Source: Candidatus Pacearchaeota archaeon
GTDB taxonomy: Archaea > Nanobdellota > Nanobdellia > Pacearchaeales > GW2011-AR1
Length of the DNA: 48,782 nucleotides
Assembly (NCBI GenBank): GCA_016181885.1
Contig: JACOYJ010000022.1
Coordinates: 1-48,782, forward strand
Reading direction: 5' to 3'
The position numbers and the translations under genes were made by a program. Below, piece by piece: positions 31,963 through 47,091 of the stretch. Below the pieces are notes generated by a model, which saw only the letters and a list, made by a program, of their open reading frames with translations, was not told the DNA's origin and ran no database searches. Positions within the stretch are counted from its first letter, which is position 1. Every line of letters begins with the position of its first letter.

Positions 31963-34900
31963 ATGTTAGAAAAGCTGGGCCAAGCCCTCAAAAAAGCAAC
32001 AGATAAGATAGCAAACGCCCTATTTTTAGATAGAGATTTAGTTGAATCAATAATCAGAGACCTGCAAAGAGCGCTGATTGAAGCCGATATGAACATTCCT
32101 TTAGTCAAAGAGCTTTCAGAAAAAATAAGAAAAGCCGCTTTCGATGAAAGAATTAAAGAAATAGATAAAAAAGAGCATATAATAAAACTCCTGCATGACG
32201 AACTTAGCTCAATTCTAGGAGAATACAAACCTCTCCAAATTCAAAAAAAGCAGAATAGAATAATGTTTCTTGGATTGTATGGAGCAGGAAAATGTGTTCA
32301 TGGAAAGAGCAATATTCCGTTAAGTGATGGTAACATAATTCAAATTGAGAAGCTTTATAACAAATATTCAGAAAAATTCAAAGAAGAGGAATTAGAGGAT
32401 GGAAGAATAATAAACATATCAAACTCAAATCTTCTAGTTCCTTCATTTAACCCAAAGACTTCAAAAATAGAAAATAAAAAAGCCACTCATTTATGGAAGC
32501 TAAATAAAAAAGAACTGATAGAAATCAAAGCGGATAATGGAAACGATTTCTCAATTAAAGTAACTCCAGAACACCCATTTTTTGCACTGAAAAACGGACA
32601 AATAATCCAAATAAGAGCCGATAAACTAACAGAAAATGACTTTATAGCACTTCCAAGAGAGATAGAAATCAATGGAAACCCGATAAAGATATCTGAGAAA
32701 ATAAAGGACCTTGACCTATATATATACCTAAATAAAGAAGAGACTGAGAGAATAATAAAGGAAAAGAACAAAACAATAAAAGAAATTCATAATACTTTAA
32801 AAAATAAAAGGAACTATTGTCAATTAACAACAGATATAAAAAAAGGGAAAATTCCAATTGAGCTTGTTAATCTTGATAACTTTAGCTCAATACGAACAAA
32901 ACTTAAAAATGCGATAAATATTATTCAGTTTCCATTATTTTTAAATTCAGAACTGGCAGAATTTCTTGGCTATGTAATGGGCGATGGTCATTTAGATAAA
33001 AATTATGTTGAAATTGTAACAGAAGATGGGGAGATTATACAAAGAATGGTTTATCTATCCAAAAACCTGTTTGGTCTGAATGTTTCTCTTAAAAGAGACA
33101 CAAGAACAAAATCCATGTATAAGTTAGTTTTGAGCTCATCAACACTAGTAAAATTAATCTCTATTTTTGGATTAAATCCAGGAAAAAAGGGCAAAAAATT
33201 AGAGATTCCGGAGGAAATTCTCAAATCAAATAATGAAGTTGTAAGAAGTTTCATTAGGGCATATTTTGATTGTGATTCTTATGCTTCACAAGGTAGAAAT
33301 ATAGAACTGTCTTCAGAAAGCAACATCTTAATTAAGCAGATGAATTTATTACTAAACAGATTTAATATAGCTTCTACAATATCAAAAAAAATAACCAATA
33401 ATGTTCCTTATTGGAGGCTATATATTAAATCAAAATCAGCAGAACTTTATGCAGATAAAATAGGATATCTCATAGAAAAAAAGCAAAAGAGAGCTAATAG
33501 ATATAGGATAATAGGAATAAACCAAGGATGTGGAGATCAAGAAATGCTTCCTTTAGGAAAGATTTTAAAAGAAATAAGAGAAAGCCTAGGATTCTCAATA
33601 GGAGAAATTCAGGAAAATGCTGTCTTTAGTTATGGAAGATATGAGGAAAGTGGATTTATATCAAGAGAACATTTAAGAAAACTAATAGAATATTATAGAG
33701 GTAAAAAAGGAAGATTTTTCCAGATATTAGATTCCATTTCAAATAATGAAGATATTTATGAAAAATACTCAAGGGAAGTTATAAATGGGTTAGTTTGGTT
33801 TTTAAAAAATCAAGAGATAGTAAACAAAAAAGGAACTAAAATAATCTTAACAAATAAAGGTGAGAGTTATCTTCAATTAGTAAAAAATAGTAATTTAAAT
33901 GAAATATTGAACAATCTTGAGTTTCTTTCTGAGTCCAATGTCTTTTGGTCCTCTGTAAAAGAAATAAATAAGATTACAAATGATCAAGATGTTGTTTATG
34001 ATCTTACAGTAGAGGATAATCACAGCTTTATTGCAGAAGGATTCATAGTTCATAACACAACAACAATCGGAAAGCTGGGAAATTATTTTGCCAAAAGGGG
34101 AAATAAAGTTGCGCTTGTTGGATTAGATGTTCATCGTCCAGCAGCAGCCGAACAGCTAAAGCAAACTGCAGATAAAAATAATTTAACCTGCTTCATTGAG
34201 CCAAAAGAAAAAAGCGCGGTAAAAATATGGAAAAAATATGAAAGCGAATTGGAGAAATATTCTCTGGTTTTAATTGACACAGCCGGACGGCACATGCTTG
34301 ATGAAGAGCTAATCTCTGAAATAAAGGAACTTGATAAGTCAATTAAGCCAACAGAAAGAATTCTAGTCATGCCTGCAGATATAGGGCAAGCCGCAAAAAG
34401 ACAATCAAAAGAATTTCAAGATGCTGTAAAAATCTCCGGGGTGATAATCACAAGAATGGACTCAAGCGCAAAAGGCGGGGGGGCGATTACCGCATGCAAC
34501 GAAACAAAAGCCGGCGTTTATTTTATAACAACTGGAGAAAAAATAAATGACATCGAGGAATTCAACCCATCATCTTTCTTATCAAGACTTTTAGGTATGG
34601 GGGATCTTCAGGCATTAATTGAAAAGATAAAATCTGTGACTGATGAAAAAAATCAGGAAAAAATCAAAAAAAATTTAGAAGAAGGCAGAATATCTTTAGA
34701 TGATGTCGTTGAACAAGTAAAGGCTATGGGCTCTATGGGCGGATTTGACAAAATAAAGAGCATGATTCCCGGTTTAAGAAGCGCAAAAATTCCCGAAAAC
34801 GCTCTTGAAAGTCAGCAAACAAAAATAGCTAAGTGGGAGCATATTTTAAAATCAATGACAAAAGAGGAAAAGGAAAATCCTGAATTGCTTAAGGAACAGC

Positions 34901-35094
34901 ATTCAAGAATAAACAGAATAGCTAGTGGTGCGGGTGTCGCAAATTCTGAAATAAAATCTTTGTTGAAGCAATATGATATGCTAAACGAATTCATAAAAAA
35001 CCAATCTGATTTTGATCCGGAAAAAGGGATGAATCAGAAACAAATGATGAAACTCGCCAAGAAGTTTGGAAAAATTAAGAAGATGAGGTTTTAG
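31963..35094 (+). CDS. srp54: Signal recognition particle 54 kDa protein with intein
   Basis: 1043-residue precursor; removing the intein (residues 111-698) gives 455 residues, normal for SRP54. The first extein carries the N-domain and ends inside the P-loop at FLGLYGAGK; the second resumes with TTTIGKLGNYFAK and continues with VGLDVHRPAAAEQLK, DTAGRHMLDEE, TRMDSSAKGGGA and a Met-rich M-domain (about 940-1043). It binds signal sequences and targets ribosomes to FtsY. GTP binding would require protein splicing, since the intein splits the P-loop. Confidence 0.95.
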   Translation: MLEKLGQALKKATDKIANALFLDRDLVESIIRDLQRALIEADMNIPLVKELSEKIRKAAFDERIKEIDKKEHIIKLLHDELSSILGEYKPLQIQKKQNRIMFLGLYGAGKCVHGKSNIPLSDGNIIQIEKLYNKYSEKFKEEELEDGRIINISNSNLLVPSFNPKTSKIENKKATHLWKLNKKELIEIKADNGNDFSIKVTPEHPFFALKNGQIIQIRADKLTENDFIALPREIEINGNPIKISEKIKDLDLYIYLNKEETERIIKEKNKTIKEIHNTLKNKRNYCQLTTDIKKGKIPIELVNLDNFSSIRTKLKNAINIIQFPLFLNSELAEFLGYVMGDGHLDKNYVEIVTEDGEIIQRMVYLSKNLFGLNVSLKRDTRTKSMYKLVLSSSTLVKLISIFGLNPGKKGKKLEIPEEILKSNNEVVRSFIRAYFDCDSYASQGRNIELSSESNILIKQMNLLLNRFNIASTISKKITNNVPYWRLYIKSKSAELYADKIGYLIEKKQKRANRYRIIGINQGCGDQEMLPLGKILKEIRESLGFSIGEIQENAVFSYGRYEESGFISREHLRKLIEYYRGKKGRFFQILDSISNNEDIYEKYSREVINGLVWFLKNQEIVNKKGTKIILTNKGESYLQLVKNSNLNEILNNLEFLSESNVFWSSVKEINKITNDQDVVYDLTVEDNHSFIAEGFIVHNTTTIGKLGNYFAKRGNKVALVGLDVHRPAAAEQLKQTADKNNLTCFIEPKEKSAVKIWKKYESELEKYSLVLIDTAGRHMLDEELISEIKELDKSIKPTERILVMPADIGQAAKRQSKEFQDAVKISGVIITRMDSSAKGGGAITACNETKAGVYFITTGEKINDIEEFNPSSFLSRLLGMGDLQALIEKIKSVTDEKNQEKIKKNLEEGRISLDDVVEQVKAMGSMGGFDKIKSMIPGLRSAKIPENALESQQTKIAKWEHILKSMTKEEKENPELLKEQHSRINRIASGAGVANSEIKSLLKQYDMLNEFIKNQSDFDPEKGMNQKQMMKLAKKFGKIKKMRF
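32293..34056 (+). mobile_element. SRP54 intein with LAGLIDADG endonuclease
   Basis: 588-residue in-frame insertion between GAGK and TTT of the P-loop. It starts with Cys (CVHGKSNIPL, block A) and ends in SFIAEGFIVHN with the splicing Asn; the +1 residue is Thr. LAGLIDADG motifs are FLGYVMGDGH (near residue 335 of the precursor) and FIRAYFDCDS (near 435). An extra domain at about 528-590 (LPLGKILKEIRESLGFSIGE) looks like a helix-turn-helix between the endonuclease and the C-terminal splicing block. All splicing residues seem intact. Confidence 0.93.
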
Positions 35095-36430: not shown

Positions 36431-36973
36431 TCACTTTCTCATAAATTCAAACACAAATTCCTGATCTTCAATTCTTTGAGCAAGAACCAATGCCAATCCC
36501 TTTAGTGCAGAGATATCGTCAGCTTCTCTTGAATTAACAAGTCCCGAAATATCCGCTTCTTTTTCAAAACAAAATACTTGAGATAAGGAAGATTCATCTC
36601 CTAAAAAGTAAGCATGCGTAAGCCCCATTTCTCCCAATGTTTTATATTCTTGTCTTGATGCTAAAAAGTCTTTCGTCATTCTTCTATAAGGAACAACTAT
36701 TCCTCCTTCTTTATACTCTCCATTTAAAGTATATGCAGAAAGCTCTTTTCTTTTTAATTCGACAGCAACAATATTTCCATTCCTATATAACTCAACTCTT
36801 GCTATTGACTTATTCGATAAAGGATTTACAACATCTTCTGTAGATATGTCCCTATCTCCTAAATTAATGTTGAAATCAGTATAAATCATTCCAGCAATTT
36901 CTGCAGGAGTTCCAACCCGCAAAATATATGTTTTTTCCTCATCTTTGTTTGTTCTAATTAAATATTGCGTCAT
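36431..36973 (-). CDS. Accessory protein of the MoxR/VWA operon (unknown)
   Basis: 180 residues from ATG 36973, one base after the stop of the upstream gene; an earlier ATG at 37006 would overlap that gene. Soluble. It contains the segment GEMGLTHAYFLGDESSLSQVFCFEK, which looks like parts of the MoxR N-terminal region (KQAGFSHGYKLRSSEETGRLHYFEQ). Last gene of the operon. Unlike three of its neighbours it lacks the IPR-type tail. No family recognised. Confidence 0.7.
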   Translation of the reverse strand: MTQYLIRTNKDEEKTYILRVGTPAEIAGMIYTDFNINLGDRDISTEDVVNPLSNKSIARVELYRNGNIVAVELKRKELSAYTLNGEYKEGGIVVPYRRMTKDFLASRQEYKTLGEMGLTHAYFLGDESSLSQVFCFEKEADISGLVNSREADDISALKGLALVLAQRIEDQEFVFEFMRK

Positions 36974-36974
36974 T

Positions 36975-37427
36975 TCATTTCCTTTCAGGTATTTTAGGTA
37001 TGTCAATGCTCCAAATTCTTTTAGCTAAAGAATCAGACATAATTCCAGATTGAGGTGCTTTAAACAATCTTGGATAAACACAATAAAAGTTGCCAGTTAA
37101 ATGATGACAAGTAAACTCCCCTACTCTTTTGGCAGCAACATAATCATACCCTAAAACTTCTGCTAATTTTCTAGTTTGTCCGATAACATCCATTACTTCC
37201 CCGCCATCCAATTTTGTTCTTTCAACAACTATTGACAAATCACCTAAAGGTGTTTCGATAATGTTCTCCCCTAAAATAAGCTTTTGAGAGTTATACCTGA
37301 ACTTCCAATCATGTCCTAAGTTAGTTTTTTCGGTTGAAACAGATTTGGGAATTTTGAAAATGCCTTTCTCACCTGTTTCAACTAAAAAATATGGTTTCCT
37401 TGAACAATTTATTTCTCTTTCATCCAT
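36975..37427 (-). CDS. Accessory protein of the MoxR/VWA operon with IPK tail (unknown)
   Basis: 150 residues from ATG 37427, which follows the VWA gene's stop by one base; the longer frame to 37502 would run into the VWA coding sequence. The C-terminus RIWSIDIPKIPERK resembles the tails of two other proteins of this operon (PWKVQIPRIDK, PWDIKIPRLEG). Three cysteines. No family recognised. Confidence 0.7.
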   Translation of the reverse strand: MDEREINCSRKPYFLVETGEKGIFKIPKSVSTEKTNLGHDWKFRYNSQKLILGENIIETPLGDLSIVVERTKLDGGEVMDVIGQTRKLAEVLGYDYVAAKRVGEFTCHHLTGNFYCVYPRLFKAPQSGIMSDSLAKRIWSIDIPKIPERK

Positions 37428-37428
37428 T

Positions 37429-39207
37429 TTATCTTGATATCCCGAATGTTTTAAACAGCCTAAACATCTCGCTAGGAAGTTCATAAACTTTATCCCTGTC
37501 AATCACAGTATAGTGGTCTGAGCCTATCTCTTCAGTTAAACTTCTTGCATATTTTTCAAACTCTCTTCCTATTACAACCAAAAAAGGATACATCTTTTGA
37601 TCATATACCTCACGCATTGCAGCCTTTGCATCGTCAAAATTTTGATCTTCGCCATCTGTAATAATTGTTATTCCTTTTGGATGTTCTCTTTGTCTCCCTA
37701 ATAAACTTCCAACAGCTCTTAATGGCGGACCTAAATAAGTCCCGCCATCATCTTCTTTTTTCAAAGCCATAATTTTATTTGAACTTGTTGAATCATATCT
37801 CTCTGGAAAGTCATTTATTACATAAAGAACATTGCTTGAAAATCCAAACAATCCAATTGACCAGTCAGTTACTCCCAAAGCTTCAGCATTGATAAATAAT
37901 CCTGCTCTTATATCCTCAAGGATTTTATATGAATTAGTAGATGGAGTGATGTCTGCCAAAACAGCCCATGCAGGTCTTTGTTCATTTTGCGTACCTCTTC
38001 TAAAACATTTTCCATTTCCTTTAATTCTTGTAACTATTGACTCTAATTCGGATTGCAGATAATCTTCATAGTTTAATTCCTGCCCTTGAAAATCTTCCTT
38101 GTCTCCATAATGTTTAAGCTGCAACTGTCTAAAAATTCTCTTCATGCTTTCTATTTCACCAGTATACATGTTTCTAAAACTATCCTCTTTTTGCGCCATC
38201 TCTCCGGTAAATCGTGGCTCAACAACCTGAATCCTAACCCCATATTCCTTCTGGGCTTGCTGATATAAACTTGTTCTATCGTCGTCATTTCTTCCCGCGC
38301 CTTCGTCTTCTTTGTTTTTATCTTGATTATTTTTTGTCTTATCCTCTCCGTTTTCACCTAGTTTGGATAATTTTTCCTTTCCTCCGTCTAATTTCTCTGG
38401 TTTTTTTCCATCTTCTCTTCCTTCTCTTGGTTTTACCTCTTTTCCATAACCCTGCTGCGGACTCCCCGTATTTGGTTGAGAGTGATTTCCTGTCCCAAAC
38501 ATTGGGGGAAGTCTTGAAATAGGCTGGGTAATATCAAAATTTTCTTTAAATTTTTGATAGATTCTGCTCACAACTTCTTTATCTCTTTGAATAGAATCTG
38601 CCGTGCTTGTTAAAGCAACAACCTCTTCAAGAAGAATCTTATGTTTATCCGGAATTGGTTCAATAACTCTCCCTATTAGAGATTTTTGCAGATATTGTTC
38701 TCTAAAAACATCTAATTCCGACATGCCCTTTACACTTGGTCTAAAGTATTCTGCAGCTGGATGAAAAACTTCCTCATGGTGTCTTTTTACGCCCGGAAGC
38801 TGCTCTCTTCTTTGAGCATCAATTCTCCTGTCCTTGACAATCTTATCAATCCAGCCGGCAAGTGCGGGATTTTCTTTCAGTTCTGAATAATTTCTTTGAT
38901 GAAATTCTTGTACCAGATTAGTTTCCCCCTCTCTTAATTGCTCTATTTCTGCGCCGAAATATTCATTTATTTCCCTGATATGATCTGCCTCGTGTGCTGT
39001 TGAATCTGCTATCAGCAATTCATTATCTTTTTCAGATGCAAAACTACTCTCTCTTCTCGGAAGAAAGATTTGTGTTCCGTCAGTGCGTGGACAAGAACTA
39101 TTTCCCTCCAATACAATCAGATGCTTATCAGACGCTCCTTCTCCGATTCTGAAATCAATTATCTTTTCTAATTTCTCTGACAATCTGCCTGTATGAACAA
39201 TTGACAT
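37429..39207 (-). CDS. Von Willebrand factor A domain protein, NorD/CbbO/CobT-like
   Basis: 592 residues from ATG 39207 (the stop of the upstream gene is 2 bases before it). The N-terminal part has TDGTQIFLP and AHEADH (72-76 as HEADH), as in NorD/CbbO partners of MoxR ATPases. The middle is a highly charged, disordered linker (about 250-310, rich in Lys, Glu, Asp, Asn). The C-terminal VWA domain has DITPST, GGTYLG and TDGED as MIDAS-type motifs, slightly off the DxSxS consensus. Such proteins work with MoxR AAA+ ATPases to remodel or insert metal into targets. Confidence 0.88.
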   Translation of the reverse strand: MSIVHTGRLSEKLEKIIDFRIGEGASDKHLIVLEGNSSCPRTDGTQIFLPRRESSFASEKDNELLIADSTAHEADHIREINEYFGAEIEQLREGETNLVQEFHQRNYSELKENPALAGWIDKIVKDRRIDAQRREQLPGVKRHHEEVFHPAAEYFRPSVKGMSELDVFREQYLQKSLIGRVIEPIPDKHKILLEEVVALTSTADSIQRDKEVVSRIYQKFKENFDITQPISRLPPMFGTGNHSQPNTGSPQQGYGKEVKPREGREDGKKPEKLDGGKEKLSKLGENGEDKTKNNQDKNKEDEGAGRNDDDRTSLYQQAQKEYGVRIQVVEPRFTGEMAQKEDSFRNMYTGEIESMKRIFRQLQLKHYGDKEDFQGQELNYEDYLQSELESIVTRIKGNGKCFRRGTQNEQRPAWAVLADITPSTNSYKILEDIRAGLFINAEALGVTDWSIGLFGFSSNVLYVINDFPERYDSTSSNKIMALKKEDDGGTYLGPPLRAVGSLLGRQREHPKGITIITDGEDQNFDDAKAAMREVYDQKMYPFLVVIGREFEKYARSLTEEIGSDHYTVIDRDKVYELPSEMFRLFKTFGISR

Positions 39208-39209
39208 TT

Positions 39210-40037
39210 TTATCCGTCCTTGTCTATTCTTGGAATCTGAACTTTCCATGGGTCTACAAAGGGAGTTTCTACTTGGGAAATGTTGACTTGATTAGATTGG
39301 TTCTGCATAGTTTGCTGGATAGTTTTCTTATCTATTTCTACAATCGTTCCACTAAGTCTTCCAGAATCATACCAACTAATTTCGTGAAGAGGCATTCTTT
39401 GTAATGGAGAAATACCCGAGATTATTCTTTCAAAATTACCCTCTCCTACAAGTGGCAATCCATATCTTACAACAGCATTGCTTAATGCATCTCCTACTTG
39501 GAAAGTTCTTAAAAACTGTTCTTCAGAACGATATGTAAGATGTAATTTTAGATTTTCTTTGACAGTATAATCTCCATATTCCCCATATTTTTTACCAGAT
39601 GTTTCAACAATCCTTTCCCTTCCTGCACAAAATAATTCTTCTCCAACTTTTTCTTTTGTTAGGATCATTAAATCTAAGTCGCGAGGTTTTTTCCTTTCTG
39701 TTCTTGCTGTTTCAACTACACCTTTTCTCAATCCAAACCAGGTTTTTCTTGTTCTTGCAAACTGTGTTGGAAAATGCCGATACAACGTGCTTCCATATAT
39801 GCATACTGCGCTTATGTTTTTCGGAGTAACCTTCCTCTTGTCAATATTTGGAATTTCTATGGAAAAGGCGTTTAGATTTGCAACATATTTCCATAAATTG
39901 GTTAAATCTGCATTAACTGATAACTCTCCTTCGACAAATTTTTTAACTTCCGGGATAACTATCCCAAGACTTCCTAAAGTATCTGCTTCGTATCTTGACT
40001 GCATATATTCTGGAGTTATATCTCTTGAGTTTGCCAT
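39210..40037 (-). CDS. Nucleotidyltransferase-like protein with IPR tail, MoxR/VWA operon
   Basis: 275 residues. CIYGSTLYRHF (Gly82-Ser83) followed by RDLDLMILT (Asp120, Asp122) fits the GS...DxD core of polymerase-beta-type nucleotidyltransferases, but the spacing (about 36 residues) is longer than in minimal enzymes. The protein ends FVDPWKVQIPRIDKDG, a tail shared in form with the 41470 and 36975 products; an internal SIEIPNIDKRK (59-69) looks like a copy. Substrate unknown. Confidence 0.75.
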   Translation of the reverse strand: MANSRDITPEYMQSRYEADTLGSLGIVIPEVKKFVEGELSVNADLTNLWKYVANLNAFSIEIPNIDKRKVTPKNISAVCIYGSTLYRHFPTQFARTRKTWFGLRKGVVETARTERKKPRDLDLMILTKEKVGEELFCAGRERIVETSGKKYGEYGDYTVKENLKLHLTYRSEEQFLRTFQVGDALSNAVVRYGLPLVGEGNFERIISGISPLQRMPLHEISWYDSGRLSGTIVEIDKKTIQQTMQNQSNQVNISQVETPFVDPWKVQIPRIDKDG

Positions 40038-40045
40038 ATTGTCAC

Positions 40046-41473
40046 TTAAACATATTTATTTACAATATCCATTAATTTAGTATATAATTTTCCATCTCTT
40101 CTCTCAATATTGTTTTCATAAGTTGTTAGAGGATTGACGATATTATCTTCAAATAATTCTCTCATCGGAATAGTTGTTCCCATTATGATTCTTTGAGCCA
40201 ATTCAACTGCTCCTTTTAATCCTAAATCCCTCGAAAACTTTCTTGCTTCTGGCCTCATCTCTTCAACTGCATCAGTTATAAGTTCTGCAGTCTCATAATC
40301 TAATCCAGGAGCTCTTGCTTGCAGAATGTCAATCATATTATCTCTTGATGGATATCCTATTTTTAATTGGGAAAATCTTTGCAAAAGAGCATCATTTAGC
40401 TCATTAGTTGTATAATTACTATGAAAATTTCCTGCTGCTACAAATCTAAAATTAGGATTGGCTATAACAACCTCATGCCCAAATTGTGTGATGAGAGGCA
40501 ACTCTCCTGTTTCTAAAAAGATATTTAATCCAGTTAATTCATCTTGAGGTATTGGCGGCATTTCTTCCAATACATAAACTCCGCCATGAATCGCCGCTAA
40601 TGTTAGAGAGCCTGGTGAAAATGTTGGATTGCCGGGGCTTGGGACAAACTTTCCTATTGCAGTTGAAAGCCTAAAAGATGTGCTTCCCGTATCAAAATAA
40701 AAAGGAAGTCCTCTTTCACACGCATAATTTCTTGACAAAACTGTCTTGCCGTTTCCAGTAGGTCCATTAAGAATAACTGGCCTTATCCCATGGTCAAGAT
40801 ATTCAAAAAATCTCTCTTTTTCCCCCTCTTGGTCCTGGTAAGGAAATGCTCCTTCAATTACTCTCGGCTGAAAATGTTCTTTTACAAATTTTACAAAATT
40901 CCCTTCTACAACTTCTCTATGAACTTTCTGGGGTTTTTTAACTGGAACTTGTTTCTTTACAGTTCTTCCTTCAATATCTTGTTTGATTCTGTCATAGATG
41001 ACTATCGGCAAAAAGGACGTGTAATCTGAAATGTCTAAAGCTAAAACCGCCCTGGATAATCCATCTTGTTCAAAGTAGTGCAATCTCCCAGTTTCTTCCG
41101 AACTTCTAAGTTTATAGCCGTGTGAAAAACCAGCTTGCTTTAATTGCTCTGCTTCCTGGCTTGCCAAATCCTCCAAGCTTAATCTTCCAATGTCATATCT
41201 TCTGCTTCCTGTCTTTAAAATAAGCTCTTCATTTCCGCCAATAATTAAAATTGAATTCTGGTCGCCATTTCTCATCATAACCCTGTTTCTTTCAGGCAGA
41301 TACGAACTAATAGTTCCCAATAATCTATCATCTAAAGAAGTAACTATATAACGAACAGGCAAAGCAATTTCTTCCTTTAGTTCTGGATAATTAACAACTG
41401 CTTGAGCTTGACCATCTTCCAAATTAACAACTACTGCTCTTTTATCTTGAAAATCTACTGCATAATTATTCAT
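40046..41473 (-). CDS. MoxR-family AAA+ ATPase
   Basis: 475 residues. The N-terminal ~200 residues are not typical for MoxR and may be a family-specific domain. Then Walker A GPTGNGKT (237-244), Walker B VYVLEEM (Glu303/304), sensor 1 AAGNFH (Asn349) and arginine finger LLQRFS (Arg366), as in CbbQ/NorQ-type MoxR proteins. It probably forms a hexamer that acts with the VWA protein to remodel a client. Its start overlaps the upstream gene's stop by 4 bases. Confidence 0.9.
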   Translation of the reverse strand: MNNYAVDFQDKRAVVVNLEDGQAQAVVNYPELKEEIALPVRYIVTSLDDRLLGTISSYLPERNRVMMRNGDQNSILIIGGNEELILKTGSRRYDIGRLSLEDLASQEAEQLKQAGFSHGYKLRSSEETGRLHYFEQDGLSRAVLALDISDYTSFLPIVIYDRIKQDIEGRTVKKQVPVKKPQKVHREVVEGNFVKFVKEHFQPRVIEGAFPYQDQEGEKERFFEYLDHGIRPVILNGPTGNGKTVLSRNYACERGLPFYFDTGSTSFRLSTAIGKFVPSPGNPTFSPGSLTLAAIHGGVYVLEEMPPIPQDELTGLNIFLETGELPLITQFGHEVVIANPNFRFVAAGNFHSNYTTNELNDALLQRFSQLKIGYPSRDNMIDILQARAPGLDYETAELITDAVEEMRPEARKFSRDLGLKGAVELAQRIIMGTTIPMRELFEDNIVNPLTTYENNIERRDGKLYTKLMDIVNKYV

Positions 41474-42150
41474 TTTCTCTTTCCTTCCAATCTAGGAATT
41501 TTAATATCCCATGGATTTATAAAATGAGTTTCTGCTTGAGGCATCTCTGCTTTTTTGGGTTCAGCTTCTTTTCCTTGTGGCGCTTGAGGTGAATATGTTA
41601 TAAGAGAATCATGCCTCATCGCATTTTCAAGACCTTGCTTATATCTTGCAAACTCCCCAAGGTCTTGAACTGTTATAATATCACGATTTAAACTAATATC
41701 GTATTGGAAGGCAAATTTCTTCGCGTCATAAAGAAAGATGCCCGATAAAGATTCTTTTGTTGTATCCCTTACAGATAATCTAAAAGAATAGCCGCTGCCT
41801 TCGTAAGAAGTTCTGACTATTCTTGATCTATCGTAGCAACATCCAGACCCGTTTCGTTTAAATTTAGCATCTTTAGAAATTATTACTTTCAATAAAGCAT
41901 CCCTGCTATTTGAATCGTTAATTTTGCAAAACGCGTCATTATCAATTTCAAGACCCTCAGGAAAAAACATTGTCCCATCGACAAAATTTACCCGCCTAAG
42001 ATTCCAACCTGGGAAAATCTGAATTTCTTCCGCAAACCTCAGATTTGTTAAATATCTCCTGCAATTTAGCATGCTTACAAGCGCCTTAGCAATTTTCTCA
42101 TGCTGTTCCTCTCCCCTATCCGGATATCTTCCGTTACAAACTTTTTTCAT
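41470..42150 (-). CDS. Accessory protein of the MoxR/VWA operon with IPR tail (unknown)
   Basis: About 226 residues from ATG 42150; the ATG at 42165 is the alternative. It overlaps the 37-codon leader gene by 17 bases. The body is alpha/beta and soluble with adjacent cysteines (GSGCCYDRSR). A Pro/Glu/Lys-rich linker (about 190-205) leads to the tail FINPWDIKIPRLEGKRK, which parallels FVDPWKVQIPRIDKDG in the nucleotidyltransferase-like protein. No family recognised. Confidence 0.75.
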   Translation of the reverse strand: MKKVCNGRYPDRGEEQHEKIAKALVSMLNCRRYLTNLRFAEEIQIFPGWNLRRVNFVDGTMFFPEGLEIDNDAFCKINDSNSRDALLKVIISKDAKFKRNGSGCCYDRSRIVRTSYEGSGYSFRLSVRDTTKESLSGIFLYDAKKFAFQYDISLNRDIITVQDLGEFARYKQGLENAMRHDSLITYSPQAPQGKEAEPKKAEMPQAETHFINPWDIKIPRLEGKRK

Positions 42151-42247
42151 TTTTCTTATTCTCAAAAGATTTATTGATTGTGAGCTTCATTGCATGATTC
42201 TTGTCTCTAAAAGCGTCTTCTTCTATGCTTATGCTTAATTTCCCCAT
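42134..42247 (-). CDS. 37-residue leader protein of the MoxR/VWA operon
   Basis: A short frame beginning MGKLSISIEEDAFRDK with ATG at 42247, only about 24 bases after a TATA-like GATTTATAAGG. This makes it the first start codon on the mRNA, and it overlaps the next gene by 17 bases, the usual pattern for coupled archaeal genes. Charged, helical, no membrane segment. Too short to identify by family; promoter position is the main support. Confidence 0.5.
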   Translation of the reverse strand: MGKLSISIEEDAFRDKNHAMKLTINKSFENKKNEKSL

Positions 42248-42558
42248 AGCATAAATTAGTAAAGCTCATCCTTATAAATCTTTCTAAATTTACCACTTTA
42301 AAGTTAATAATAGATATTTTTCAGCAGAAAAAAATAGTGAGGGGTTGTAAAGTAAACCAGCGATCTTAACATAAAACTTGTTCACCACATATGCATGTTT
42401 TTATCATTAATAGCTAATAACAAATTTGCGAATGAAATGAGCAGCTAATTTTATTTATTATTTGCAGATTATTTAAGGAATCAAACTGTAGAATGTTAAG
42501 TTATGACCTTGACTCAGCAAAGATGCAAAGTTTAAATATTATAGAAGAATAATTATTT
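42248..42558. other. Intergenic region between the MoxR/VWA operon and purQ
   Basis: Holds the TATA box of the minus-strand operon (about 42270-42280), a copy of the family 2 repeat (42344-42446) and the purQ promoter region. A TATA-like AAATATTATAG lies near 42533. No further gene seen. Confidence 0.6.
42344..42446 (+). repeat. Dispersed intergenic repeat, family 2, copy 2
   Basis: Starts GTTGTAAAGTAAACCAGC and matches 19071-19174 over about 100 bases. Its end, AATTTGCGAATGAAATGAG, recalls the interior of the MITE-like family (ATCTGCGAACAAATGTGAG). A second partial match (GTTATGACCTTGACTCAGC, about 42502-42520) also has a counterpart near 19434. Target duplication not seen. Confidence 0.6.
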
Positions 42559-46001: not shown

Positions 46002-46088
46002 AAAAAACAAAATTACAATTCATTAATAAAGATTTATGCGAATAAATGAATGCCGCTGATTGTATTTAAGGGAGATTAATCCGATAAT

Positions 46089-46161
46089 AGCCCCGCTCGG
46101 ATTCGAACCGAGGTCTCGAGCTCCAAAGGCTCGCATACTTGACCGGCTATACGACGGGGCT
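46089..46161 (-). tRNA. tRNA-Gln(TTG)
   Basis: 73 bases: acceptor AGCCCCG/CGGGGCT with discriminator T or A depending on end choice, D-arm GTATAGCCGGTCAAGTAT, anticodon stem CGAGC/GCTCG around CTTTGGA (anticodon TTG), T-arm CTCGGTTCGAATCCGAG. No intron. Unusually it has no TATA box in front of it: the upstream bases are the end of a homing endonuclease gene whose stop codon lies 15 bases inside the tRNA. Confidence 0.93.
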
Positions 46162-47091
46162 ATCTAAATTCCACATCCTAACTTTCTTAAGATGCTTATC
46201 ATTACTGAAACCGATGAGTTTTAAAAACTTTCTTAATTCGTCTTTTTTGGTTATGTAAATTTCCTTACCTTTGCTTATTCTTGAGCAATTAATGCCCAAT
46301 GAAAGTAAACCGTTTCTAACGTCATTCAATAAATCTTGATTATAATTAGTAAAGCAAAATTGGTGGGAATTTTGGTTAGTTAGTTTATAAACAGATCCAT
46401 CAGTATCATAAAGCCCCCTTAAACACGCAATAAGAAATTTGTTGTGATCCTTTATCCAAACCGGAATCCTCAGTTTATTCTTAATCTTATTTCCAGGAGG
46501 AAATCCTTTTTCTTCTAAAAAATTAATAAGTTTTACACTATGGGATTCAATAAACATTGCATTTGGAGGATCTTGAAAACCTTTTTTAGGTTTAAACCTC
46601 CCAACTCTAACTTGAATATTAAATAATTTTTCAATAAGAGGCTTTACGTAATTAGTTAAATACTCCTTATCATGCCTGGAGTCTCCAACAATTTTTATCA
46701 CATAAACTCCTCTTTTGTTATTTCGTGATTTATAGAAACTTGTTTTATAGGAATTCCCATCTCCTAGCATGATTCCATAAAACTCTGCAAGTTCTTCTGA
46801 ATCTCGAGGGATTTTAATTTCCTTTGTTTTGCCTAGGGATATAATTCCCCCCTTACATTGTCCCCAATTATCACTCAATTTTTCAGTTATAAATTCATTA
46901 AAATCTTTCTTAAGAAATCTGCAAATTTTCTTATAAACATCTTAAGAAAGTAATCTTTGTTCATGCCTTAATTCACTCCTCAAGTAACCTTCTGAAACAC
47001 CCAATAACTTAGACAACTCAAACCAAGAATAATTTTCTTTCAAAGAATTAATCATTTCTTTCTGCTTACCTTTAATCAACTTAATCCTCAT
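46147..47091 (-). pseudogene. LAGLIDADG homing endonuclease gene with in-frame stop
   Basis: From ATG 47091 a 49-residue N-terminal part (MRIKLIKGKQKEM..., with a helix-turn-helix-like WFELSKLLGVSEGYLRSEL) ends in TAA at 46942-46944. The same frame then continues without interruption (DVYKKICRFLKKDF...) into a 243-residue endonuclease that could restart at TTG 46878. Motifs FYGIMLGDGN and LRGLYDTDGS are the two LAGLIDADG helices. It ends inside the tRNA-Gln gene. Either decaying, or made as two pieces or by readthrough. Confidence 0.8.

Follow-up and report, generated by a model that had tools for sequence, protein, structure and literature searches.

A MoxR/VWA operon of a Pacearchaeota archaeon encodes exchangeable partner proteins with a common C-terminal tail

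Client choice by MoxR-VWA machines is, to our knowledge, poorly understood, and the known pairs are each dedicated to one client. In the SspB/ClpX docking tails and the encapsulin cargo-loading peptides, a flexible linker and a short C-terminal peptide bring proteins, either unrelated ones or adaptors, to a single machine or shell. In NorQD, the finger of NorD fills the pore (PMC13036017), and the MIDAS has been implicated in client binding (PMC9976466); in the MoxR-vWA ternary conflict systems (VMAP, iSTAND, and related), vWA or VMAP carries the variable domains as fusions (PMC7159879). The operon analyzed here is like NorQ/NorD and CbbQ/CbbO in the AAA+ branch, in a VWA partner with a finger-like segment and MIDAS, and probably in motor geometry. 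It differs from them in a 205-residue MoxR N-terminal domain, in the core gene g7, and in partners that are exchanged between genomes and bear a common C-terminal tag, and no cNOR, other metalloenzyme or rubisco client was found among the operon proteins or the scanned neighbours. With the ternary systems, it shares a conserved MoxR-VWA core and variable effector-like partners, but these are separate proteins with a common short tail, and the MoxR N-region is different. Those systems are marked by VMAP upstream of the MoxR and vWA genes, by the aromatic motifs WxhapG and PsWRxa in the N-region of MoxR, and by a vWA-fused effector; here, no VMAP match was obtained, neither MoxR has a tryptophan in its first 200 residues, and nothing follows the VWA domain in the VWA protein. 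The linker and C-terminal peptide recall SspB/ClpX and encapsulin, whereas machine, motif and lineage differ, there is no shell gene, and docking is here something that we infer. As the original prediction had supposed, the literature yielded no description of a system with these genes.

The window, i.e., the whole 48,782-nt stretch of DNA that was analyzed, comes from Candidatus Pacearchaeota archaeon (GCA_016181885.1, contig JACOYJ010000022.1). On its minus strand (42247-36431), there are seven packed genes in the order leader, g2, MoxR, NT, VWA, g6, and g7, and after start correction these were of the kinds that had been predicted. The junctions had been given as gaps or overlaps of 1-4 bases; when corrected, the extremes are an overlap of 17 nt and a gap of 8 nt. 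The features of the operon are as follows.

42271..42278, minus strand: putative archaeal promoter, TATA-like box TTTATAAG, 23 nt upstream of the leader ATG, read from the sequence
42134..42247, minus strand: leader ORF, 37 codons, 17-nt overlap with g2
41470..42150, minus strand: g2, 226 aa, tagged, no family match
41473..41523, minus strand: C-terminal tag of g2, FINPWDIKIPRLEGKRK, preceded by the linker YSPQAPQGKEAEPKKAEMPQAETH
40046..41473, minus strand: MoxR-type AAA+ ATPase, 475 aa, 4-nt overlap with g2
40859..41473, minus strand: N-terminal extension of MoxR, about 205 residues, 52% conserved between the two operons, candidate tag receptor
40765-40742, minus strand: Walker A of MoxR, GPTGNGKT
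39210..40037, minus strand: NT, 275 aa, divergent nucleotidyltransferase-like protein, tagged, gap of 8 after MoxR
39794-39789, minus strand: GS motif of NT
39680-39672, minus strand: DxD of NT
39213..39260, minus strand: C-terminal tag of NT, FVDPWKVQIPRIDKDG, preceded by a Gln/Asn-rich linker
37429..39207, minus strand: VWA protein, 592 aa, NorD-like, gap of 2 after NT
38994-38980, minus strand: HEADH of the VWA protein
37953-37939, minus strand: DxTxS of the VWA MIDAS, with the T and TDG also present
36975..37427, minus strand: g6, 150 aa, tagged with a weaker variant, operon copy extended at the C-terminus, gap of 1 after VWA
36978..37019, minus strand: weaker tag variant of g6, RIWSIDIPKIPERK
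36431..36973, minus strand: g7, 180 aa, untagged, gap of 1 after g6

The MoxR protein matched Pfam AAA_5 (1.1e-10) and the GvpN model (1.1e-12, below the equivalog cut-off), and in the PDB it matched CbbQ (4.9e-13) and NorQ (6.7e-10), with midasin higher. Judged by such matches, it has the AAA+ module and is a member of the CbbQ/GvpN/NorQ branch. It is not a compact ATPase, as about 205 extra residues form a large N-terminal domain in both known copies of the operon; this extension is absent from the other NorQ-type ATPases of the phylum, which match only from about position 202 of the model. The VWA protein consists of an N-domain with HEADH and DRRID, a low-complexity linker, a finger-like segment, and a VWA domain with a complete MIDAS. 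It is encoded one gene from MoxR and, as expected of a NorD/CbbO partner, has the finger ahead of the MIDAS-bearing domain; the alignment with NorD chain 9qhd_G (E 2.7e-4) covers the finger and MIDAS region. Together with the CbbQ and NorQ matches of MoxR, this result upheld the predicted kinship with NorQ/NorD. NT is linked weakly to NTP_transf_2 proteins, and its distant homologues bear NTP_transf_2/Polbeta; the Pol beta-like residues GS82-83 and D120/D122 are present in NT and in the two proteins closest to it, and its activity is uncertain, as His apparently occupies the position of the third carboxylate. The g6 protein belongs to a small family of unknown function, and g2 and the other unknown proteins gave nothing reliable in Pfam, NCBIfam, PHROGs, or PADLOC.

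The sole other operon of this kind was found in a related nanosized archaeon, Candidatus Pacearchaeota RIFOXYC1_FULL_30_12 (G085), so that two of the 200 genomes in the order carry it. Beyond this one true relative, no further operon was detected in the whole order and the sampled phylum, in viral contigs queried with MoxR, VWA, g7, e1, and e2, or in the phages and plasmids searched, and the GTDB genome contigs returned nothing beyond the G085 contig and generic MoxR. Identity between the two operons is 65% for MoxR, 51% for VWA, and 47% for g7, the last gene of the window operon; this untagged gene shows a weak local resemblance to the MoxR N-domain. The accessory genes, in contrast, are replaced in G085 by two unrelated signal-peptide/membrane proteins, and both of these carry the tail (FIDPWSIDI and IINPWDINV). 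The six genes had been proposed to stay together: this applied to MoxR, VWA, and g7, while the tagged genes were exchanged, and the tail was retained on accessory proteins that are unrelated to those of the window. The leader has no counterpart in the sister operon, which begins with a 48-aa gene that, judged by eye, reads like an AbrB-type protein. Synteny with purQ was also examined as an insertion marker, and this gene was rare in relatives.

The C-termini of g2 and NT read F[IV][ND]PWx[IV]xIPR[LI] and are preceded by Gln/Glu/Pro/Lys-rich linkers, in line with the predicted Gln/Glu/Pro-rich linker of these two proteins. Across both operons, the tag can be generalised as [FI][IV][ND]PWx[IV]x[IV] at the end of a flexible, hydrophilic linker; the tail peptide sequences include FINPWDIKIPRL and FVDPWKVQIPRI. 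The comparison comprises two operons and five tail sequences in total. Ungapped BLOSUM62 comparison of the last 22 residues of g2, NT, and the tagged pair from G085 gave pairwise scores of 36-64, the best of 377 background C-termini reached 25-34, and only 0-1 of 4000 shuffles attained the scores of these tails. About 1% of shuffles attained that of g6; of the three accessory proteins said to end alike, g2 and NT were thus above background and the g6 tail was weak on sequence alone. Moreover, a scan of both operon-bearing genomes with [ND]PWx[IVM]x[IVM] gave nine matches; only four were no more than 16 codons away from the stop codon of a substantial gene, and these were g2, NT, and the two tagged G085 proteins. 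One further match lies 12 codons upstream of a stop, in an apparently non-coding frame of 35 codons. Two refuting cases had been set beforehand: tails that are as frequent on unrelated proteins, and orthologous operons devoid of them. The motif was not equally common in unrelated proteins, and the sister operon keeps the tail; among substantial genes of both genomes, its stop-proximal form is confined to the MoxR/VWA operons.

Relatives of the tagged proteins outside such operons were informative as well. NT homologues from three genomes stop short of the linker and are tailless, and both linker and tail are missing from the g6 homologues of two genomes (stand-alone L060 and L061) and from the one complete homologue of e2, a G085 membrane protein. 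The MoxR N-domain and g7, in turn, were found only in the company of tagged proteins. Because unrelated G085 proteins carry the tail while homologues elsewhere do not, the tail tracks the operon and not the protein family, and the proposal of a tag is supported, in the sense that the tag is modular and linked to the MoxR/VWA operon. Since unrelated co-encoded proteins share it and three of them have tailless relatives elsewhere, the peptide looks like a plug for exchangeable parts.

We consider it fairly probable that the operon encodes a MoxR-VWA machine of the NorQ/NorD type whose cargo is swappable and recruited by a C-terminal docking tag. From its conservation in both operons, the core would be MoxR with the extra N-terminal domain, the NorD-like VWA protein, and g7; docking of the tag on this core is what we infer, and its receptor might be the N-terminal domain of MoxR, the VWA protein, or g7. 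The finger of the VWA protein probably occupies the pore of MoxR, as in NorQD. Because the NorD finger occupies the pore in NorQD (PMC13036017), threading of the tail through it is less likely, and the tag would more likely be an outer-surface tether, held by the MoxR N-domain, the VWA N-domain, or g7. ATP-driven rotation of the VWA protein might thereby act on the tethered proteins by remodelling or switching them; these would be a nucleotidyltransferase and small proteins in one archaeon and membrane-anchored exported proteins in the other. If true, recruitment to a MoxR-VWA machine would follow a simple rule, a transferable short tag on unrelated proteins; such a tag could serve to attach proteins of choice to an AAA+ machine, and the tail would be a sequence signature to predict cargo in uncultured DPANN archaea. 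More tentatively, and with less than even confidence, one may think of a tag-coded MoxR-VWA platform in DPANN, in which the linker and PWxIxI tail admit any protein and mobile operons carry interchangeable effectors, which would be enzymes in one host and exported proteins anchored in the membrane in another, perhaps in defence or in contacts of the cell surface with the host cell.

A plug-and-play conflict system, in which the MoxR-VWA pair is a threshold switch and tagged toxic or signalling effectors are held inactive and released on infection, with a peptide tag in place of domain fusion, would agree with the patchy distribution, with exchangeable partners of which one is nucleotidyltransferase-like, with the integrase, type III restriction-modification system, and other accessory genes on the G085 contig, and with the conserved core and variable effectors described for VMAP systems (PMC7159879). 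However, PADLOC gave no convincing match for the core, a VMAP-type third protein, a VWA-fused effector, and W-motifs in the MoxR N-region were all lacking, NT has no recognised toxin partner, and the window copy lies amid housekeeping genes, and we regard this defensive role as rather unlikely. A handle for proteolysis or processing, with the HEADH/DRRID segment of the VWA protein as a metallopeptidase fed with tagged proteins by MoxR, appears improbable. HExxH and [ED]xRI[DE] are conserved in the VWA proteins of both operons, and HExxH recurs in the related NorD-like operon L067, but the putative peptidase segment aligns weakly with NorD, whose motif is degenerate, and a tag common to co-encoded, operon-specific proteins suits recruitment more than disposal.

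The motif may also have another partner, because its residues resemble an internal stretch of ScpA. The ScpA proteins of both genomes contain LDPWDVDI or LNPWDIDI, and the tails could thus bind SMC by mimicry of [ND]PWD[IV]DI, or else an encapsulin-like protein shell. It is very doubtful that the partner lies outside the operon, as the segment lies inside ScpA and is found as well in the ScpA of the L067 genome, which is free of the present operon, whereas the tails are found only with the operon; the encapsulin shell PF04454 was absent from both genomes (85-86% complete), and control genomes were positive. Both ScpA mimicry and encapsulin targeting are therefore disfavoured. Chance or low-complexity similarity would fit a short motif known from five sequences, with a weak tail in g6, but the shuffles, the background C-termini, the genome-wide specificity, and the homologues devoid of linker and tail make this hardly credible. 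Recruitment of swappable cargo by the tag remains the reading that we prefer.

AlphaFold2 predictions, each from a two-sequence alignment, had a pLDDT of 35 for MoxR and of 30 for a stop-read-through construct with the e2 tail ahead of the VWA protein, both too low to be informative. The sole complete e2 homologue belongs to another AAA+ operon, L072 of G448, which differs in that its ATPase is of the classical Cdc48/PAN kind, VWA was not found, and the e2-like protein is tailless; as in G085, exported membrane proteins of the e2 family are encoded there with an AAA+ ATPase.

The operon lies in a 1.1-Mb genome of 69 contigs, in which the window is contig G000:C33, and its start-corrected genes are as follows:

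42247-42134, minus strand, leader
42150-41470, minus strand, g2
41473-40046, minus strand, MoxR (AAA+ ATPase)
40037-39210, minus strand, NT (nucleotidyltransferase-like)
39207-37429, minus strand, VWA (NorD-like)
37427-36975, minus strand, g6
36973-36431, minus strand, g7

The seven genes predicted originally were thus present after start correction, but the extremes among the junctions were a 17-nt overlap and an 8-nt gap, beyond the 1-4 bases first described. A TATA-like box was read from the sequence 23 nt upstream of the leader ATG.

This MoxR was detected in only one other genome among 200 of the order, G085 (Candidatus Pacearchaeota archaeon RIFOXYC1_FULL_30_12, contig G085:C38), and no further copy was found in 371 genomes sampled across the phylum. 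The sister operon keeps MoxR (65% identity), VWA (51%) and g7 (47%), and between MoxR and VWA it carries two different proteins, e1 and e2 (351 and 368 aa), both of which have an N-terminus resembling a signal peptide as well as a hydrophobic stretch. These end in IINPWDINVNNLNSGGKR and FIDPWSIDIRGKEGGK, and do not resemble g2, NT or g6 outside the tail. The comparison, which is of two operons in incomplete genomes (85% and 86%), showed a conserved core of MoxR, VWA and g7 with exchangeable tagged partners; of the genes expected to stay together, the core did so and the tagged ones were replaced by others. At the start of the G085 operon (L004 6513-6659), a 48-aa gene reading like an AbrB-type DNA-binding protein replaces the 37-codon leader.

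The strongest evidence, drawn from the sequences of a few genomes, is that the tail goes with the operon. NT homologues in G074 (40%), G254 (36%) and G031 (25%) all stop about where the linker of the window NT starts, and no MoxR or VWA gene occurred in the DNA read around them (3.5 kb in G031). Similarly, both g6 homologues (G087 and G050) were without the final extension, and the complete e2 homologue of G448, adjoining a Cdc48/PAN-like AAA+ ATPase, ends LHPLVFPK without linker and tail; a second G448 homologue is cut off at the contig end and gives no information on the tail. Therefore, in three families linker and tail were present only on the operon copy. The G448 locus (L072 1-5379, G448:C30) is a compact operon of two e2-like exported membrane proteins, the ATPase and two uncharacterised proteins, and may be a second AAA+ system with the same membrane-protein family. 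The stand-alone NT homologue of G074 (L055 2688-7139, G074:C22) is separated from SRP54 by a few genes and has a RIO/Bud32-like kinase in its vicinity; the window operon adjoins the same kind of kinase with SRP54 nearby, in a different arrangement.

That the tails are chance similarity is hardly credible. The four tails of g2, NT, e1 and e2 gave pairwise scores of 36-64, the best of 377 other C-termini reached 25-34 against them, and 0-1 of 4000 shuffles attained the observed scores in the five pairs tested; the weaker g6 score was reached by about 1% of shuffles. A scan of both genomes with [ND]PWx[IVM]x[IVM] gave nine matches, four of them close to the stop codon of a sizeable gene, all operon proteins; another lay 12 codons upstream of the stop of an apparently non-coding 35-codon frame, and two were internal to Pfam-confirmed ScpA. 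Among 688 ORFs of the loci examined, W-x-[IVM]-x-[IVM] occurred within the last 30 residues of five operon proteins and three short ORFs (62-78 aa), the latter probably spurious. Hence neither outcome that had been named as contrary to a docking tag was observed: both G085 accessory proteins carry the tail, and near-stop motifs in substantial genes were confined to operon proteins in both genomes. The ScpA of both genomes (L021 and L026, each about 1500) has [ND]PWD[IV]DI, closely like the tail motif; this likeness is probably convergence and less likely mimicry of the kleisin segment by the tail.

The remaining alternatives were weighed by judgement. A conflict-system role, possibly VMAP-like in working, is conceivable but doubtful: the operon is patchily spread and the G085 contig bears an integrase and a type III restriction-modification system, but it failed the tests for VMAP membership. 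This reading overlaps with the docking tag, because such a tag could serve a conflict system. Proteolysis through the HEADH segment, which is found in the N-terminal part of VWA with DRRID downstream, is unlikely, and a tail partner outside the operon very unlikely. 

A docking tag is the most probable reading. The tail would then hold cargo on an outer surface, where the cargo may be remodelled, gated or cut, and the simplest tether site would be the MoxR N-domain, a stretch of about 205 N-terminal residues additional to the AAA_5 module, or g7. Both were found only in the two operons, the N-domain being absent from other NorQ-type loci of the phylum. The two (40859-41473 and 36431-36973) are weakly similar over part of their length (hhalign E 0.002, probability 13%), and may have arisen by duplication and divergence of a single domain.

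The motor itself is familiar. The AAA_5 module of MoxR is closest to GvpN, CbbQ, NorQ and midasin, and the match of VWA to NorD (9qhd_G, E 2.7e-4) covers both the finger and the MIDAS region, the MIDAS being complete. In the NorQ/NorD system the MIDAS is required for client maturation and dispensable for NorQ binding (PMC9976466). Compared with the known NorQ-type motor, exchange of partners by tag is an unfamiliar feature of the window and G085 operons, and, as originally supposed, no description of a tail-tagged MoxR system or of this gene set was found in open-access papers. NT had no Pfam match, but homologues that it matches weakly within the phylum (E about 1e-3) bear NTP_transf_2/Polbeta, and its GS and DxD motifs are conserved in the two closest relatives; g2, g6 and g7 had no reliable match in Pfam, NCBIfam, PHROGs or PADLOC.

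Two further NorQ/NorD-like pairs were seen in the phylum: at L067 5346-8623 (G430:C49) the NorD-like N-domain, with HEAGH, is a separate overlapping gene, and at L070 2178-6858 (G179) a separate overlapping upstream ORF weakly matches that region. Elsewhere in the window, the SRP54 gene (31963-35094, plus strand) is apparently split within its P-loop (GAGK / TTT); the long insert begins (CVHGKS) and ends (VHN) like an intein. A LAGLIDADG-domain ORF (46147-46770, within 46087-46770, minus strand) overlaps the end of a tRNA-Gln call (46087-46162), and is possibly an intron, intein or homing element.
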